From contig NZ_JAGETV010000006.1 of NCBI RefSeq assembly GCF_017571465.1, positions 62,001-126,000 on the forward strand: a stretch of 64,000 nucleotides of DNA, given 5' to 3'. Source of the stretch: Thiomicrorhabdus marina. GTDB taxonomy: Bacteria; Pseudomonadota; Gammaproteobacteria; Thiomicrospirales; Thiomicrospiraceae. The position numbers and the translations under genes were made by a program. Shown in pieces: positions 9,526 to 48,491 of the stretch. The notes beneath the pieces were generated by a model that was given only the letters and a program-made list of their open reading frames with translations, made no database searches and was not told the DNA's origin. Within the stretch, counting starts at the first letter, position 1. Each line of letters opens with the position of its first letter.

Positions 9526-10482
9526 ATGAAAAAGAATATTATTGCTCTAGCAATCGCTTCTGCAGTTGCAGCTCCAGTAGCAATGGCTGATGCGCCAACT
9601 GTTTACGGTCAATTAAACCTAAACTACAATAAGACTGCAGATGTTGATGGTTCTATTAACTCTACTGCTTCTCGTCTAGGTATTAAAGGTTCTGAAGATC
9701 TAGGTAACGGTCTTAAAGCAGTTTATGGTGTTGAATTCGGTCTAGATGCAATCGCTGATAATAATTCGGATGGTAAAGGCGATAACATCCTATCTCAGCG
9801 TAATGCTTTCTTAGGTCTTGCTGGTGGTTTTGGTACGGTTCTTATGGGTCGTCACGACACGCCGACTAAAATGATTCAGCCTTCTGATCTTTTCAACGAC
9901 GGTGCTGCTGACGTTAACCAAATGACAAACGGAATTGATAACGGTGAGGTTCGTGCCGATGACGTTCTAGCTTATGTTTCTCCTTCTTTTGGTGGTGTTA
10001 AAATCCTTGCGGCTGCAGTAATTGATGAAGAAGCTGGTGAAGGTGCTGGTGAAGGTAATGATGATTGGGTTAACCTTGCTGCGACTTATGGTTCGACTAA
10101 AAAAGGTTTATACCTTGCTGCTGCATGGCAAGATGCACAGGATGACGATATGACTGTAATTCGTGCATCTGCACAATATAAAGCAGGTGGTTTAGTTGCC
10201 TCTGTAATGCACCAAGACGTTTCTGGTGATACTGCAGAACTAGCAGGAACTTCTGGTAATTTTACTCACTTCCAAGCTGGTTACAAAATCGGTAAATTCA
10301 TGCCTAAAGTTAAATATGCTATGACTGATAAAGATGGTGCTGATAAGGAAACTGGTTTCGCAGTTGGTCTTAACTATTCTCTAGGTAAGAAAACCACTGC
10401 TTATATCTATACTGTAGATCGTGAAGATATTAATACTAAAGGTAACGCTGAATATATTATCGGTATGGTTCACAAGTTCTAA
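9526..10482 (+). CDS. Gram-negative outer-membrane porin (copy 1)
   Basis: The protein has 318 residues with a signal peptide ending AVAAPVAMA before DAPTVYGQLNLNY. The mature part has the alternating aromatic/hydrophobic strands of a beta-barrel, a GSEDLGNGLKAVYGVEFGL block and GLAGGFGTVLMGRHDTPTK, which are typical of the neisserial/betaproteobacterial type porin family, and ends in phenylalanine (MVHKF), the signal for the BAM complex. Codon use is strongly biased, so an abundant protein is expected. A second porin of the same length lies 546 bp downstream and differs mainly in loop-like regions. Likely a general diffusion channel; substrate preference cannot be read. Confidence 0.93.
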   Translation: MKKNIIALAIASAVAAPVAMADAPTVYGQLNLNYNKTADVDGSINSTASRLGIKGSEDLGNGLKAVYGVEFGLDAIADNNSDGKGDNILSQRNAFLGLAGGFGTVLMGRHDTPTKMIQPSDLFNDGAADVNQMTNGIDNGEVRADDVLAYVSPSFGGVKILAAAVIDEEAGEGAGEGNDDWVNLAATYGSTKKGLYLAAAWQDAQDDDMTVIRASAQYKAGGLVASVMHQDVSGDTAELAGTSGNFTHFQAGYKIGKFMPKVKYAMTDKDGADKETGFAVGLNYSLGKKTTAYIYTVDREDINTKGNAEYIIGMVHKF

Positions 10483-11028: not shown

Positions 11029-11985
11029 ATGAAAAAAAATATTCTTGCTTTAGCCGTTGCTAGCGCAGTTGCTGCTCCATCAGCAATGGCTGGTGCTCCA
11101 ATTCTTTATGGTCAACTAAATCTAAACTACAATAAAACAGATAATGTTGATGGTTCCATTAACTCGACCGCTTCACGTCTTGGTATTAAAGGTTCTGAAG
11201 ATTTAGGTAACGGTCTTAAAGCGGTTTACGGTATTGAATTTGGTTTAGATGCTATTGCTGATAACAATTCTGACGGTAAAGGCGATAATATCCTTTCACA
11301 GCGTAATGCATATCTAGGTCTTGCTGGCGGTTTCGGTACAGTGCTTATGGGTCGTCATGACACGCCGACTAAAATGATTCAGCCAACTGATTTATTCAAT
11401 GATGGCGCGGCTGATGTTAATAAATTAACAAATGGTGTTTATGATGGTGAAACGCGTGCAGATGATGTACTAGCTTATGTTTCTCCATCTTTTGGCGGGG
11501 TCAAAATCCTTGCGGCTGCAGTAATTGATGAAGAGCCTGGAGAAGGTGCGGGTGCGGGTAATGATGATTGGATTAACATTGCTGCGACTTATGGTTCAAC
11601 TAAAAAAGGTTTGTACTTAGGTGCTGCATGGCAAGATGCTCAAGATATGGACATGGATGTTATTCGTGTATCTGCGCAATATAAAACTGGTGGTTTAATT
11701 GCTTCTGCAATGTATCAAGAAGTTTCTGGTGATGACGCTAAAATTGCCGGAACTTCAGGTAGCTTTGCGCATGGTCAATTGGGCTATAAAATCGGTAAAT
11801 TCATGCCAAAAATCAAATACGCTGTTGCCGGAAACGTTAATGCTTCAGACGACGAATCTGCTCTAGCAGTTGGTCTTAATTACTCTCTAGGTAAGAAAAC
11901 GACTGCCTATATCTATACTGTAGATAGTGAAGACATGGGTCGCGCTAATGCTGAATATATTATCGGTATGGTTCACAAGTTCTAA
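11029..11985 (+). CDS. Gram-negative outer-membrane porin (copy 2)
   Basis: This is a 318-residue paralogue of porin 1, with signal peptide ending AVAAPSAMA, mature start GAPILYGQLNLNY, and C-terminal MVHKF. Most of the protein is identical to copy 1, including the GSEDLGNGLKAVYG and RHDTPTKMIQP blocks; differences cluster around residues ~130-145, ~205-240 and ~270-300, where surface loops would lie. At the DNA level the copies have diverged at many third positions, so the duplication is not very recent or codons have drifted. The promoter and upstream region differ, so the two copies may answer to different conditions. Confidence 0.93.
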   Translation: MKKNILALAVASAVAAPSAMAGAPILYGQLNLNYNKTDNVDGSINSTASRLGIKGSEDLGNGLKAVYGIEFGLDAIADNNSDGKGDNILSQRNAYLGLAGGFGTVLMGRHDTPTKMIQPTDLFNDGAADVNKLTNGVYDGETRADDVLAYVSPSFGGVKILAAAVIDEEPGEGAGAGNDDWINIAATYGSTKKGLYLGAAWQDAQDMDMDVIRVSAQYKTGGLIASAMYQEVSGDDAKIAGTSGSFAHGQLGYKIGKFMPKIKYAVAGNVNASDDESALAVGLNYSLGKKTTAYIYTVDSEDMGRANAEYIIGMVHKF

Positions 11986-44089: not shown

Positions 44090-44578
44090 ATGACTTCGAC
44101 TGCTTTAAAAACCCTTTGGATTGCCGTTCTGGTAATCGTTATCGACCACATCACTAAATATCTTGCAGTCAGCAATTTGACTTTCGGTGAGCCGGTACCG
44201 GTGATTGATCACCTTAATTGGACACTGGCGTATAACTATGGCGCGGCCTTTAGTTTTCTGGCGGATTCCGGTGGTTGGCAGCGTTGGTTCTTTGTCGGGC
44301 TTGCCTTTGTTATGACGGCTTTCATGCTATGGTGGCTGAAAAAGTTACCGGCAAAAATAACGACTGAAGTCGTAGCGCTGAATTTGGTTATCGGCGGGGC
44401 AATTGGTAATGTGATTGATCGTATCTTAGAAGGGCGTGTTACTGATTTTATCGACTTTTATATCGGTACATGGCATTACGCAACCTTTAATATTGCTGAT
44501 GTAGCCATTTCGCTTGGCGCTGTGTTATTGATTATTTATGAACTTTTTTTTCGTAAAGAGAATAAAACTTCTGCTTAG
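44090..44578 (+). CDS. lspA: Lipoprotein signal peptidase (signal peptidase II)
   Basis: LspA removes the signal peptide from diacylated prolipoproteins. The protein has 162 residues and four membrane helices. The catalytic aspartates are in GNVIDRILEGRVTDFIDFY and FNIADVAISLG. N-terminal VIVIDHITKYLAV and the AYNYGAAFSFLAD loop are family marks. It normally follows ileS. The 391-bp spacer after it is AT-rich with no gene and no convincing promoter or terminator. Confidence 0.97.
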   Translation: MTSTALKTLWIAVLVIVIDHITKYLAVSNLTFGEPVPVIDHLNWTLAYNYGAAFSFLADSGGWQRWFFVGLAFVMTAFMLWWLKKLPAKITTEVVALNLVIGGAIGNVIDRILEGRVTDFIDFYIGTWHYATFNIADVAISLGAVLLIIYELFFRKENKTSA

Positions 44579-44969
44579 AGCTAGAATATCCTTTTTTGCA
44601 ACCTAGTGATGTATTTTGCTCGATATTGAATAGTTTATGTTTCCTTATCAAGACGTATTTGTTGCAAGATCGAGAACTTAATGCGCCTAAAGTCTATATT
44701 AGTATTGACTGAAAAATGCATTTTTAATGTTTCTATAAAAAAATATGATTAAGCTTTTTTTGTTGTAAGTTGTTGAAATTAAAGAATATTATTTTGATTT
44801 ATTTTTTGTGAGTAAAAAAAGTCGGTAAATGGTGTAGAGAATATTTACTTCATTGGTTAATATGGCCTCCGTTAAATCTGAAAGCGAGCATAAAAGCACT
44901 TAAATAGCTCGTTTTACAACAAAACAGATGAAACTCTTATTTCAAAAAGATATTCGGAGTAAATAAAAG

Positions 44970-45935
44970 ATGGCACTAAATATTCTTATCGACCAAGATA
45001 AGTCTGACAACTCAGACGCATTGTTCTCAGTAGTAAATATTCTAAAAACTAAAGCGCCTACTGGTTTCGAAGATTCTGCTTTCGGTTTCGAAGGTGAAAA
45101 TTCGACTAACATCATGGACATCATTGGCTTTGTTAAAAACGATGTACCAGCTGGTTCCTCAATTATCGATCTTGCTCACACTCTATCTCCTGCTGCTGAT
45201 CCAGTTGAGATTGTTAAAGGTAAACTATTAGGTTCGCCTACTGCTGCTGCATTTATTAGTGCTCTTGCACCTGCTAATTCGGAATCTGAATTGGGTGGTG
45301 ATGCACTAGGTGCTGTTGTTGGTCATCTGAAAACTATTCCGTTGACTGAGCCAGTTATTAACGCTTTCATTGCTAACTTTGTTGCTAATGACGGTATTGC
45401 TAGCCCAGTAACTAACCTGCTTCACGAAATCTCTCTAGGTGGCCACCTGCTTAAAGGTACTGTTCCTGCTGGAACAACACTAAGTTCAGAAGAAATGGCT
45501 GATCGTGCTGGTGAAGACTCTGTGGATAAAGTGGTTCAACTGTTCAACCACGTTACAGGTACAGAAGGTGCAATTATTCCAGGTGTATTCCCTAAAATGC
45601 TTGGTGATGACGTAATCGCAATCGCTGGTATCGCGCATGACGTAGTGCCTGCATATACTACTTTCAATGGTCTTTTAGATACCGATACTGGAATTATTGG
45701 TTCTATGGTTCCTGCTGGAGGTTTAGGCGGCCTTGGTGATCTAGGCGGTCTTGGTCTAACTGATATGCTAGATCTTGGAGGCGCTAACCCGCTAGACGGT
45801 CTTCTAGGTGGCCTAACTGGTGGTTCTGGAAGCGCATCTGCTGAAGCGTCTGCGTCTGATGGCGGTATTTTGGCAATCCTTGATTTAGGCGGCAATGCAC
45901 TTGATCTGGGTAGCATGCTAGATCTAGGTCTGTAA
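44970..45935 (+). CDS. Unrecognised Gly/Leu/Asp-rich protein with VPAG motifs
   Basis: I do not recognise this 321-residue protein. It has no signal peptide, no clear membrane helix and no cysteine. VPAG occurs at residues ~59, ~165 and ~247 (with a related VVPAY at ~226), hinting at three diverged repeats. The C-terminal ~75 residues are rich in Gly, Leu and Asp, with LGGLGDLGGLG and LDLGG repeats, a Ser/Ala-rich linker GSGSASAEASASDGG and the end LDLGSMLDLGL. Codon choice (cta, ggt, gct, cgt) is like the porins and ribosomal genes, so high expression is likely. A terminator follows, then a retention-module-like gene. A type I secreted or surface/matrix protein is possible; this is a guess. 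Confidence 0.8.
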   Translation: MALNILIDQDKSDNSDALFSVVNILKTKAPTGFEDSAFGFEGENSTNIMDIIGFVKNDVPAGSSIIDLAHTLSPAADPVEIVKGKLLGSPTAAAFISALAPANSESELGGDALGAVVGHLKTIPLTEPVINAFIANFVANDGIASPVTNLLHEISLGGHLLKGTVPAGTTLSSEEMADRAGEDSVDKVVQLFNHVTGTEGAIIPGVFPKMLGDDVIAIAGIAHDVVPAYTTFNGLLDTDTGIIGSMVPAGGLGGLGDLGGLGLTDMLDLGGANPLDGLLGGLTGGSGSASAEASASDGGILAILDLGGNALDLGSMLDLGL

Positions 45936-45961
45936 TCAATAGAATAATTTCTATTTGATTT

Positions 45962-45992
45962 TGAAAAAGGCTCCCTTGTGGAGCCTTTTTTG
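45962..45992 (+). terminator. Terminator after the VPAG protein gene
   Basis: AAAAAGGCTCC and GGAGCCTTTTT arms around CTTGT, followed by T. Confidence 0.88.
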
Positions 45993-46162
45993 TAACTTAA
46001 CGTCTTTTCTTATCTTACGATTTTTTCTATATAAATCAGCGCTTATCTGCTCTCGTTTTTTATCTTTACTGTACTTGGGGACAATATTAATTTGTTTGTC
46101 TTTTGCGTACTATTGTCAGTAAATAAAGCTTACTTGCTATGTTTGAGATTAAGGAGATGCTC

Positions 46163-46933
46163 ATGCAGTCCGCAACGGTACAATCCATTTCTGGCTCGGT
46201 GACCATTGTTACTGAAGGTAAAGCATATCTGGCGCAAGTCGGTGACGAAGTTGCATTGAATGCGGTTGTTGTCGCTGCTGAAAACTCAGAGTGTATGCTG
46301 GAGTGTGAGCACGGATCTGTATTGATAGCCGCTCAGCAAAAGTTGCTTATTGACGAGGATGTTCTTGGCGTGTCGGTAGATCCTCTCTCTGAAGCGCAAG
46401 TAAGCCAATCCAGTTTTCAGCATGCTGTCGTGCAGATTGCGTTGGCAGATCCAGATCATATTTTAAGTCAACTTTTAACGAACCTTAATAGCTTGCTTAA
46501 TCAATCAATGGACACATCACCGTTTGTAGATTCTGCACTTTTGGAGGATCATTCGTTGTTTTTGGAAGTTGAAGCTGAACAGATGCAAAGTCAGGATTTA
46601 CTAACGGAAGGCCTTAATGCTGCACGCGAGCAAGTTAGTGAGTTGAGCTTAGAGGAAGCATTAACCGGTGAGCTGACCGCTTCTGCTGAAGCTGATGTGT
46701 CCGAAGCAACCTTCTCAGTAGGGAATACGGAAGCTTTAGTACATATTTTGGAAACAAGTCAAGATTCAATGGAATTTGACGGTTTAATCGGTCAGCTGGT
46801 ACAAGTGATGGATTTGAGTAAACATTTCTCTAGTGGCGGAGAAAATTTTGCTAGCCTCTCGTCCTTAGAAATTGGGCTTAATCTTGATGATGACGATTTT
46901 GTTGTGAGCGATTCTCCTTACCAACAAATCTAA
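46163..46933 (+). CDS. Stand-alone LapA-type retention-module-like protein
   Basis: The protein has 256 residues from the ATG at 46163, chosen for AAGGAG at 6-bp spacing; in-frame ATGs at 46139 and 46157 lie upstream. Residues 1-70 (SATVQSISGSVTIVTEGK, YLAQVGDEVALNAVVVA, CEHGSVLIAAQQKLLIDEDV) match the pattern of the N-terminal retention module of LapA-like type I-secreted adhesins ('v..v.G.v......g....l..Gd.v..ge.i.t...s...i'), which keeps the adhesin in the outer-membrane exporter. Here no adhesin repeats follow; the remaining ~180 residues are acidic (Glu/Asp/Ser/Leu-rich), ending LNLDDDDFVVSDSPYQQI. No TAAG/PAAG LapG cleavage site is seen. Assignment rests on pattern only. Confidence 0.75.
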   Translation: MQSATVQSISGSVTIVTEGKAYLAQVGDEVALNAVVVAAENSECMLECEHGSVLIAAQQKLLIDEDVLGVSVDPLSEAQVSQSSFQHAVVQIALADPDHILSQLLTNLNSLLNQSMDTSPFVDSALLEDHSLFLEVEAEQMQSQDLLTEGLNAAREQVSELSLEEALTGELTASAEADVSEATFSVGNTEALVHILETSQDSMEFDGLIGQLVQVMDLSKHFSSGGENFASLSSLEIGLNLDDDDFVVSDSPYQQI

Positions 46934-46952
46934 GACGATCGTTCTTTCTTGC

Positions 46953-46979
46953 AAGCCTTCATTCTGAAGGCTTTTTTTA
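46953..46979 (+). terminator. Terminator after the retention-module gene
   Basis: AGCCTTC and GAAGGCT arms around ATTCT, followed by T7. Confidence 0.85.
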
Positions 46980-47144
46980 TTGCTTATTTTTTTTCGGTTT
47001 TTTCTCGCTGAATTTGATTACTTAGAATCAGCAGACGTGCCTGTAATAACCAAAAGATAAAAGCCACCGGCTTTATCTTGGTTTTATTCGGTCTATCGGG
47101 TAATCGATTCATTATTGCAAAGCTCCTATGGGCGAAGCTTCAAA

Positions 47145-47178
47145 CTCCTCGCTGACGTCAATGGGGACGTGTTCTGCG
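47145..47178. repeat. Dispersed repeat, copy 1
   Basis: CTCCTCGCTGACGTCAATGG and the following GACGTGTTCTGCG recur with few changes at 50931-50964. Both copies lie just downstream of minus-strand genes. Confidence 0.55.
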
Positions 47179-47183
47179 CTTCC

Positions 47184-48491
47184 TTAACTGTCGTTATTAC
47201 TCTGTTTTAATGCAGAGCGTAAATAATTCAACATCCGCACTGATGGGTAACCATCGGCAGGAATTGAGATTGATTTTTGAAAAGCGCGTAGCCCTGATCG
47301 AGTCATACCGCCGGCAATTCCGTCCGCTTTACCAACAGAGAAGCCTAGCTCATTGAGAAGAGATTGAATTTCAATCACCTGGTTACGGTTCAGGCCTTTG
47401 TCGTCAGCAGGCTGACCTTTAGTCAATTGCGCTTTATAACGAATTTGGTCGGCGAGGTAGCCAACACCAATGGCGTAGTTCGTTGAATTATTCCAGCGTT
47501 TAATCACCTTAAAATTATCAAAAACCAAGAAGGTCGGGCCGCGATAATCGCTCGGTAAAACCAAGATTGCATCCTGTATTGCAGGGTTGATAGCGTTGCG
47601 GAGTGTTTGATTTTCGGTAGTCTTAATGTTTAATTCTTGCCATTCGTTGATAGAACGTTTGGTTTTATTATCGGCTAAGGATAAATCAAAACCTTTCGGC
47701 AGTTTAACTTCCAAGCCCCATTCTTGGCCGCGCTGCCAGCCAAGTTGGTTGAGGAAATTACCAGCCGAAAATAGTGCGTCAGCTGTGCTAGTCCATAGAT
47801 TGACTTTACCGTCTCCATCACCATCCACTGCGTAACGCAGATAGTTGGTTGGCATAAATTGCACTTGTCCCATTGCTCCGGCCCAAGAGCCTTGCATATC
47901 GCTTAAAGAGACATCGCCTCGGTCAAGAATAGTCAAAGCGGCGATGAGCTCTTTACTGAAGAATTCGCTGCGACGAGGGTCAAAAGCCAGCGTCGCCAAT
48001 GACTGAATAATCGGATCGTAGCCGGTATAGCCACCGTAGTTGGTTTCCATTCCCCAAAATGCGACTAGATAGGCGCTTGGCACGCCATATCTGTCTTCGA
48101 CCGCTTTAAGCAGTTTCATGTTTTGCACATGGTTTTCACGACCGTTTTCGATGCGAGTTTTTGATACGGCTCTACTAAGATACTCGAAAAAAGTTCGCGT
48201 AAACTCCGGCTGTTTGCGATCCATCTGTAAGATTTTGTTGCTCAGTTGAATATTGGTAAAGGCTTTGTCCAGTGTGGCTTTGGAGATGCCTTCAGCCATA
48301 GCGCGTTTCGAAAAGTCCTGTAGCCAAATCTGGAATTCTTGCTGTTGCTGGGCAGTAAAACTCGGCTCAGTTTCTGCATGCGAAGGAGTGCTGAATAAGG
48401 CACTGCTAATGAGTAAAATGCTACCGATGCTAAGAACCGGTTGGGTGAATTTATGCCATGCTTTCTGAAAGGTTGCTACCGCTTGAGTCAT
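47184..48491 (-). CDS. Lytic murein transglycosylase, MltB family, with peptidoglycan-binding domain
   Basis: The protein has 435 residues. A signal sequence (hydrophobic SIGSILLISSALFS ending THAE-type PSHAE, ~residue 40) exports it to the periplasm. The lytic domain (residues ~50-340) has the catalytic Glu in FWGMETNYGGYTG and AFDPRRSEFFSKELIAAL, MQGSWAGAMGQVQFMPTNY and DGDGKVNLW. The C-terminal ~60 residues (IQSLLNELGFSVGKADGIAG, TRSGLRAFQ) are a PG_binding_1 domain. It cleaves glycan strands forming 1,6-anhydro ends. It lacks a lipobox, so it is soluble rather than lipid-anchored. Confidence 0.93.
   Translation of the reverse strand: MTQAVATFQKAWHKFTQPVLSIGSILLISSALFSTPSHAETEPSFTAQQQQEFQIWLQDFSKRAMAEGISKATLDKAFTNIQLSNKILQMDRKQPEFTRTFFEYLSRAVSKTRIENGRENHVQNMKLLKAVEDRYGVPSAYLVAFWGMETNYGGYTGYDPIIQSLATLAFDPRRSEFFSKELIAALTILDRGDVSLSDMQGSWAGAMGQVQFMPTNYLRYAVDGDGDGKVNLWTSTADALFSAGNFLNQLGWQRGQEWGLEVKLPKGFDLSLADNKTKRSINEWQELNIKTTENQTLRNAINPAIQDAILVLPSDYRGPTFLVFDNFKVIKRWNNSTNYAIGVGYLADQIRYKAQLTKGQPADDKGLNRNQVIEIQSLLNELGFSVGKADGIAGGMTRSGLRAFQKSISIPADGYPSVRMLNYLRSALKQSNNDS

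Follow-up and report, generated by a model that had tools for sequence, protein, structure and literature searches.

What does a highly codon-biased gene encode when its product resembles no known family, and what ties it to the genes beside it? The question is raised by the open reading frame at 44970-45935 of the window (the whole 64-kb stretch of DNA that was analysed, from a marine bacterium that oxidises sulfur), which a sequence-only reading had described as coding for a probably abundant, unrecognised protein. That reading was right that the protein is unrecognised; it missed both the neighbouring gene for a retention module (RM) protein, the RM being the plug by which biofilm adhesins stay fixed in the outer membrane, and the upstream element of the pair.

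P1, a real gene of a putative new family

The gene and its immediate signals are as follows.

44970-45935, + strand: P1 (name given here), 321 aa, acidic, without Cys or Trp; putative new family, genus-restricted
44956-44959, + strand: GGAG ribosome-binding site of P1, ten bases before the ATG (direct reading)
45963-45991, + strand: intrinsic terminator 3' of P1, 12-bp stem

The open reading frame is a real gene and more than a chance ORF, because dN/dS is low in near relatives (NG86; 0.13 for G000/G024 and 0.02 for G026/G019, with G000 denoting the window's own genome in locus labels) and because it possesses its own ribosome-binding site and terminator. The B-type copies of G026/G019, defined below, have a dN/dS of 0.04, and the distant pair G000/G026 has 0.23 with dS 2.3. 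Upstream, ATATTCGGAGTA is conserved across all five A-type P1 regions. The terminator proposed from the sequence does fold (-16.9 kcal/mol), and its absence from the output of a consensus terminator scan is attributed to the stem using up the T run. The long AT-rich region described upstream was likewise recovered, with the 391-bp gap 5' of P1 (44579-44969) having 27.9% GC compared to 44.3% for the 64-kb window. There was no Rfam match in 44500-47200 up to E 1.

Zero families were matched by P1 in Pfam (E ≤ 1), NCBIfam (E ≤ 10) or PHROGs (E ≤ 1), and a P1 profile run against PDB sequences returned a single chance-level row (E 0.2). Judged by these searches, P1 belongs to none of the known families searched and represents a new one. 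The homology search that had been suggested thus gave no clear known-family match and placed P1 in 7 of 32 Thiomicrorhabdus genomes; these were the only positives among the 95 genomes, its own included, of the protein search, and a profile built from the 11 members found the same seven among 62 genomes of the taxonomic family. A class-wide sample (n = 369 genomes) yielded G000, G026 and one weak match, G299 (E 8e-5), which has two internal stops and a 106-aa open frame and was taken as a composition match, leaving no credible member outside Thiomicrorhabdus in that sample. No plasmid match for P1 was found, and among the matches listed from open-licence papers, judged by title and the start of the abstract, none describes P1 or a pair of an RM protein with an unanchored partner.

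Two P1 copies occur in each of G000, G024, G019 and G026, and one in each of G011, G013 and G031. The 11 loci comprise five A-type (G000, G024, G026, G019 and G011), four B-type (G024, G019, G026 and G000) and those of G013 and G031. The window P1, an A-type copy, has 26–36% identity to the four B-type paralogs.

Sequence features and composition of P1

The three VPAG motifs reported for P1 are present (residues 59, 165 and 247), but make a weak signature for the family, with one of the three sites conserved: the second reads [VI]P[AP]G in 10 of 11 members, the first [LV]P[AG]G in seven and the third [VI]PAG in two. The description of the C-terminus fared better.

45693-45932, + strand: last 80 residues of P1, Gly/Leu/Ser/Ala/Asp-rich, without K, R or H; proposed export region

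These 80 residues contain 23 Gly, 19 Leu and 8 Asp. The claims that P1 lacks cysteine and a signal peptide also stood, the latter by eye. Absence of Cys, absence of Trp and a pI < 4.3 were found together in all 11 P1 members, in 3 of 14 RM proteins and in none of 219 other ORFs, the last being a biased background as the loci were chosen around P1, RM and Lap genes (mechanically called ORFs of at least 250 aa from the window and fetched loci). A pI < 4.3 alone was found in 13 of 14 RM proteins compared to 4 of the 219 other ORFs; the value of 4.05 looks like the floor of the pI calculator used. RTX repeats (GGxGxD) were found in none of the 11 members. The last two residues of RTX type I secretion system (T1SS) substrates are reported as [FLI][VAI] (PMC8861453), a pattern that excludes the GL end of P1 and that three of the 11 members fit. 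Structure prediction, also suggested earlier, was uninformative for P1 itself (AlphaFold2 on four P1 sequences; mean pLDDT 32, no usable model or fold) and gave a match to PDB 5ix9 for the N-terminus of the RM neighbour.

Codon use and abundance

Codon use resembling that of porin and ribosomal genes had been reported for P1, and is borne out by its rank of 3 of 54 window genes on a combined ribosomal and porin score, where, the six reference genes apart, no other gene scores above zero, and of 5 of 54 on a ribosomal-only score (reference genes named by eye, after removal of five short ORFs judged spurious). The gene for the RM neighbour ranks 22 of 54 on the combined score. Two adjoining porin-like genes (named by eye; 9526-10482 and 11029-11985) have similar N-termini and rank 1 and 7 of 54. 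By effective number of codons, ranked within each locus, A-type P1 genes stand high in G000 (2/11), G024 (1/10) and G011 (2/12), but not in G026 (10/12) and G019 (7/14); B-type genes rank 8/15, 8/16, 5/13 and 2/3, and those of G013 and G031 rank 7/15 and 4/14. The inference of abundance therefore stands for the window genome, where codon use makes a high level of P1 likely, and was dropped as a family-wide trait because the bias fails in G026 and G019.

The neighbouring gene encodes a short RM protein

Of the 11 family loci, nine have a gene for a LapA-type RM protein as the next one 3' of P1; these are all five A-type and all four B-type loci. A-type P1 genes are positioned downstream of lspA and are followed by an RM protein of 251–260 aa (five genomes). 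The P1 genes of G013 and G031 occur in another genomic place, without an RM neighbour and without the 30-bp element described below.

46163-46933, + strand: RM-A (name given here), 256 aa, LapA-type plug at the N-terminus (residues 1–70); tail helical in a low-confidence model

The window RM-A matches the RM model NF033682 with E 6.8e-7 and 29.6 bits, short of the curated 50-bit cut-off, as do three orthologs (26.1–35.4 bits). All five short partners match below the cut-off, four of them by protein scan (E 1e-8 to 8e-6) and the fifth, from G019, by genome search (E 6.3e-6). A model of RM-A built from two sequences has a pLDDT of 49 overall, with residues 1–60 modelled well (block means 78–89), and its N-terminal part aligns with PDB 5ix9 (Foldseek E 6e-4, TM 0.82 by target length) with a Z of 11.5 across 73 residues, compared to 5.4 for the next row. 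Sequence identity to 5ix9 is 12–15%. On this structural model, RM-A carries an N-terminal RM fold. Between G000 and G024, RM-A is 55% identical.

The short and large partners differ in their LapG-type sites. A dialanine cleavage site of this type was not found near the module in any of the five short partners; AAG is absent from the window RM-A and from four of the five overall, and in the fifth it occurs at residue 247, well away from the module. The B-type partners are large RM proteins (1092 and 908 aa where complete; the other two open to the contig end across 727 and 981 residues), and all four score above the NF033682 cut-off and have AAG at residue 111–112, the end of the module, counted from the MAIQ start (140 in G019 when counted from an upstream start). 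Profile comparison relates the RM-A and RM-B modules with E 1.4e-4 and a probability of 52%. Pfam names given to large partners (such as Aip3p_Bud6_N above cut-off and Tautomerase at cut-off) were rejected as indications of function, the matches falling within acidic repeats. By eye these repeats are about 69 residues long in two large partners (L019:10134-13412 and L020:10019-12829) and may be a new stalk unit.

Two further observations concern the short partners and their locus. A Cys at RM-A residue 44 is invariant in all five short RM proteins, which is unusual, as eight of the nine longer RM proteins of the set have no Cys. In G023, whose lspA is 88% identical and marks it as a close relative, the gap between lspA and mltB, which holds the P1-RM pair in the window genome, contains two other genes of 682 and 880 aa (L132:4017-8840).

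No homology of P1 to either RM partner was detected by profile comparison. In a search of 396 ORFs with a profile of P1 C-termini, the G019 large partner was the first sequence outside the family (12th, E 0.041, 8.6 bits). A C-terminal T1SS signal shared by P1 and the large partners was rejected, with 3 of 1000 shuffled partner C-termini scoring equally and the G024 partner reaching 2.7 bits, and the likeness is kept as a hint.

A 30-bp element upstream of A- and B-type P1 genes

44834-44863, + strand: GTAGAGR-N3-YTTAC-N8-KTARKAT, 30 bp, 106 bp before the P1 ATG

The spacing within this element is fixed in five of five A-type and four of four B-type loci, where it occurs 91–116 bp before the ATG. 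It can also be read as a weak sigma70-type promoter (TAGAGA-17-TAATAT), and a TTTAC-N8-GTAA-type inverted repeat occurs within this promoter-like frame. Ten exact copies occur in the 32 Thiomicrorhabdus genomes, two each in G000, G024, G026, G019 and G011. The pattern was defined from nine copies, all before P1 genes, leaving out the tenth (G011), which precedes a B-type RM gene by about 170 bp, P1 being absent from the interval. This P1-less site (L142 / L075, G011:C38) may represent either loss of a B-type P1 or the ancestral state. Allowing one mismatch added no site, and two mismatches added 18 sites compared to 20 for a reversed control, so the exact copies alone are meaningful.

Lap machinery in the window genome and the genus

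A cluster in G000 (L093) encodes an LssB-family ABC transporter, an HlyD adaptor and a TolC-family channel, a LapB/C/E-type exporter (TIGR03375, TIGR01843 and TIGR01844, each above cut-off). A LuxR-type (GerE) gene adjoins these genes (L093:13500-14105) and is, by its position, a candidate regulator for the 30-bp element. LapD adjoins LapG elsewhere in the genome (L049), LapD matching LapD_MoxY_N (4.9e-37) plus GGDEF and EAL, and LapG matching CystProtLapG (5e-61) and Peptidase_C93 (above the Pfam cut-off), with the NCBIfam equivalog scores of both below their own cut-offs. Across the 32 Thiomicrorhabdus genomes, a LapG-type protease (PF06035) was found in 31, LssB in 31 at E 1e-100 (30 above cut-off) and RM proteins in 25 at E 0.01 (23 above cut-off); all seven P1 genomes carry all three. 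As the genus generally has this machinery, P1 would be an optional add-on to it. The window genome also has a second LssB-type transporter (L092:635-4197, G000:C24), adjoined by a gene that is LuxR-like by eye; the same contig carries two RM genes. Two genes, one beside lapD/lapG (L049:6599-7759) and one beside an RM gene (L091:7321-8406), encode proteins that by eye resemble one another and seem to be exported.

A possible role for P1 at the cell surface

Overall, the best explanation is that P1 is made in large amounts, leaves the cell by type I secretion and, without an anchor of its own, partners the RM protein at the surface or in the matrix; we give this slightly better than even chances. 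It is favoured because of the adjacency to RM genes in 9 of 11 loci, the RM fold, the shared element, the acidic composition, the presence of Lap machinery and the contrast in codon rank (3 compared to 22). Counted against it are the orphan loci of G013 and G031, the lack of RTX repeats, the GL end, a C-terminal likeness that shuffled sequences can equal and the lack of P1-RM homology, as well as the low pLDDT of the P1 models, the strict absence of Cys and Trp from so few RM proteins and the biased ORF background. Under this explanation, the element would drive P1 strongly and the terminator would limit read-through into the RM gene. P1 would leave the cytoplasm via a LapBCE-type T1SS by means of its non-basic Gly/Leu/Asp C-terminus. 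The short RM protein would seat its N-terminal plug in an outer-membrane channel, a function suggested by homology for the modelled fold, and many P1 molecules might then gather there, attached to the RM protein or surrounding it, to form a layer at the surface or in the biofilm matrix. With no LapG-type site close to its module, this plug would presumably not be released by LapG. At the B-type locus the same job would be done with an RM protein of about 1000 aa, and the layer could be shed by LapD/LapG because that protein retains the AAG site.

P1 could instead be secreted in its own right, as a matrix or S-layer-like protein, with its RM neighbour inherited from a duplicated ancestral cassette of element, P1 and RM gene and with no physical partnership. 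Because the element and the arrangement of genes are common to the A- and B-type loci, the adjacency may count as one event; P1 also persists without an RM neighbour in G013 and G031, and the second G011 site holds the element and an RM gene without P1. Such a cassette would nevertheless have kept its adjacency while P1 diverged to 26–36% identity and RM-A to 55%, and we consider independent secretion unlikely, if well worth weighing.

The partner explanation can be taken further, to a two-part Lap system in which a scarce, plug-only RM protein without a LapG site would sit in the T1SS channel as a docking stub that is lasting and resistant to proteolysis, abundant exported P1 would coat the stub, the B-type cassette would be the releasable version and the one 30-bp element would switch both. 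This extension is speculative, and we regard it as rather improbable in its full form.

P1 might otherwise stay in the cytoplasm and, as a chaperone, regulator or storage protein, help the RM protein to be expressed or exported; this would be in keeping with a gene immediately 5' of the RM gene and a product with no signal peptide by eye and no recognised T1SS signal. Its composition, with a combination of Cys and Trp absence and low pI seen in none of the other ORFs, and its Gly/Leu-rich tail without basic residues count against such a role, and ribosomal-type codon use beside an ordinary RM gene would fit a chaperone poorly; we think this explanation doubtful. That RM-A is a decayed adhesin and P1 a functionless leftover, as the shortness of RM-A (251–260 aa compared to 908 and 1092 aa for complete B-type partners) and the absence of a LapG-type site beside its module might suggest, is highly implausible given an open RM-A frame with conserved tail motifs in five of five genomes and dN/dS of 0.02–0.13 for P1 (three near pairs) and of 0.095 (saturated dS) and 0.135 for RM-A.

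Comparison with known systems

P1 shares with RTX T1SS proteins an acidic, Cys-free sequence, a Gly/Asp/Leu-rich C-terminus and no N-terminal signal seen, and differs from them in having no GGxGxD in any of 11 members and in last two residues that are off the reported pattern. The short partner resembles PDB 5ix9, annotated 'Cell surface anchoring domain', in the fold of residues 1–73; it differs in its low sequence identity and in carrying the module on a short tail and not on a giant adhesin, 5ix9 being what we take to be the N-terminal module of the Marinomonas ice-binding adhesin.

The closest comparison is with LapA-type adhesins and their LapBCE, LapD and LapG proteins (Pseudomonas fluorescens). 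The RM plug fold, the LssB-family T1SS and the LapD/LapG homologs of G000 are alike, as is the AAG at the end of the module in the large B-type partners (4/4). Unlike these adhesins, P1 itself contains no RM, the short partner is 256 aa long and without a LapG-type site near its module, and the RTX GGxGxD is absent from all 14 RM proteins checked. We class the P1-RM pair as a new variant of a Lap/T1SS surface system and not as a LapA: despite its RM fold, the partner scores under the NF033682 cut-off, lacks a LapG-type site close to its module and does not reach the length of a LapA-type giant adhesin. To our knowledge, anchor and adhesin are always one polypeptide in Lap systems. If the partner explanation is true, a small stand-alone RM protein beside a highly expressed, unanchored protein would separate the anchor from the adhesive material, and a protein family confined to one genus of sulfur-oxidising autotrophs would gain its first assigned function. 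The pair would also offer a direct way to learn whether other cargo can be retained or presented by RM channels.
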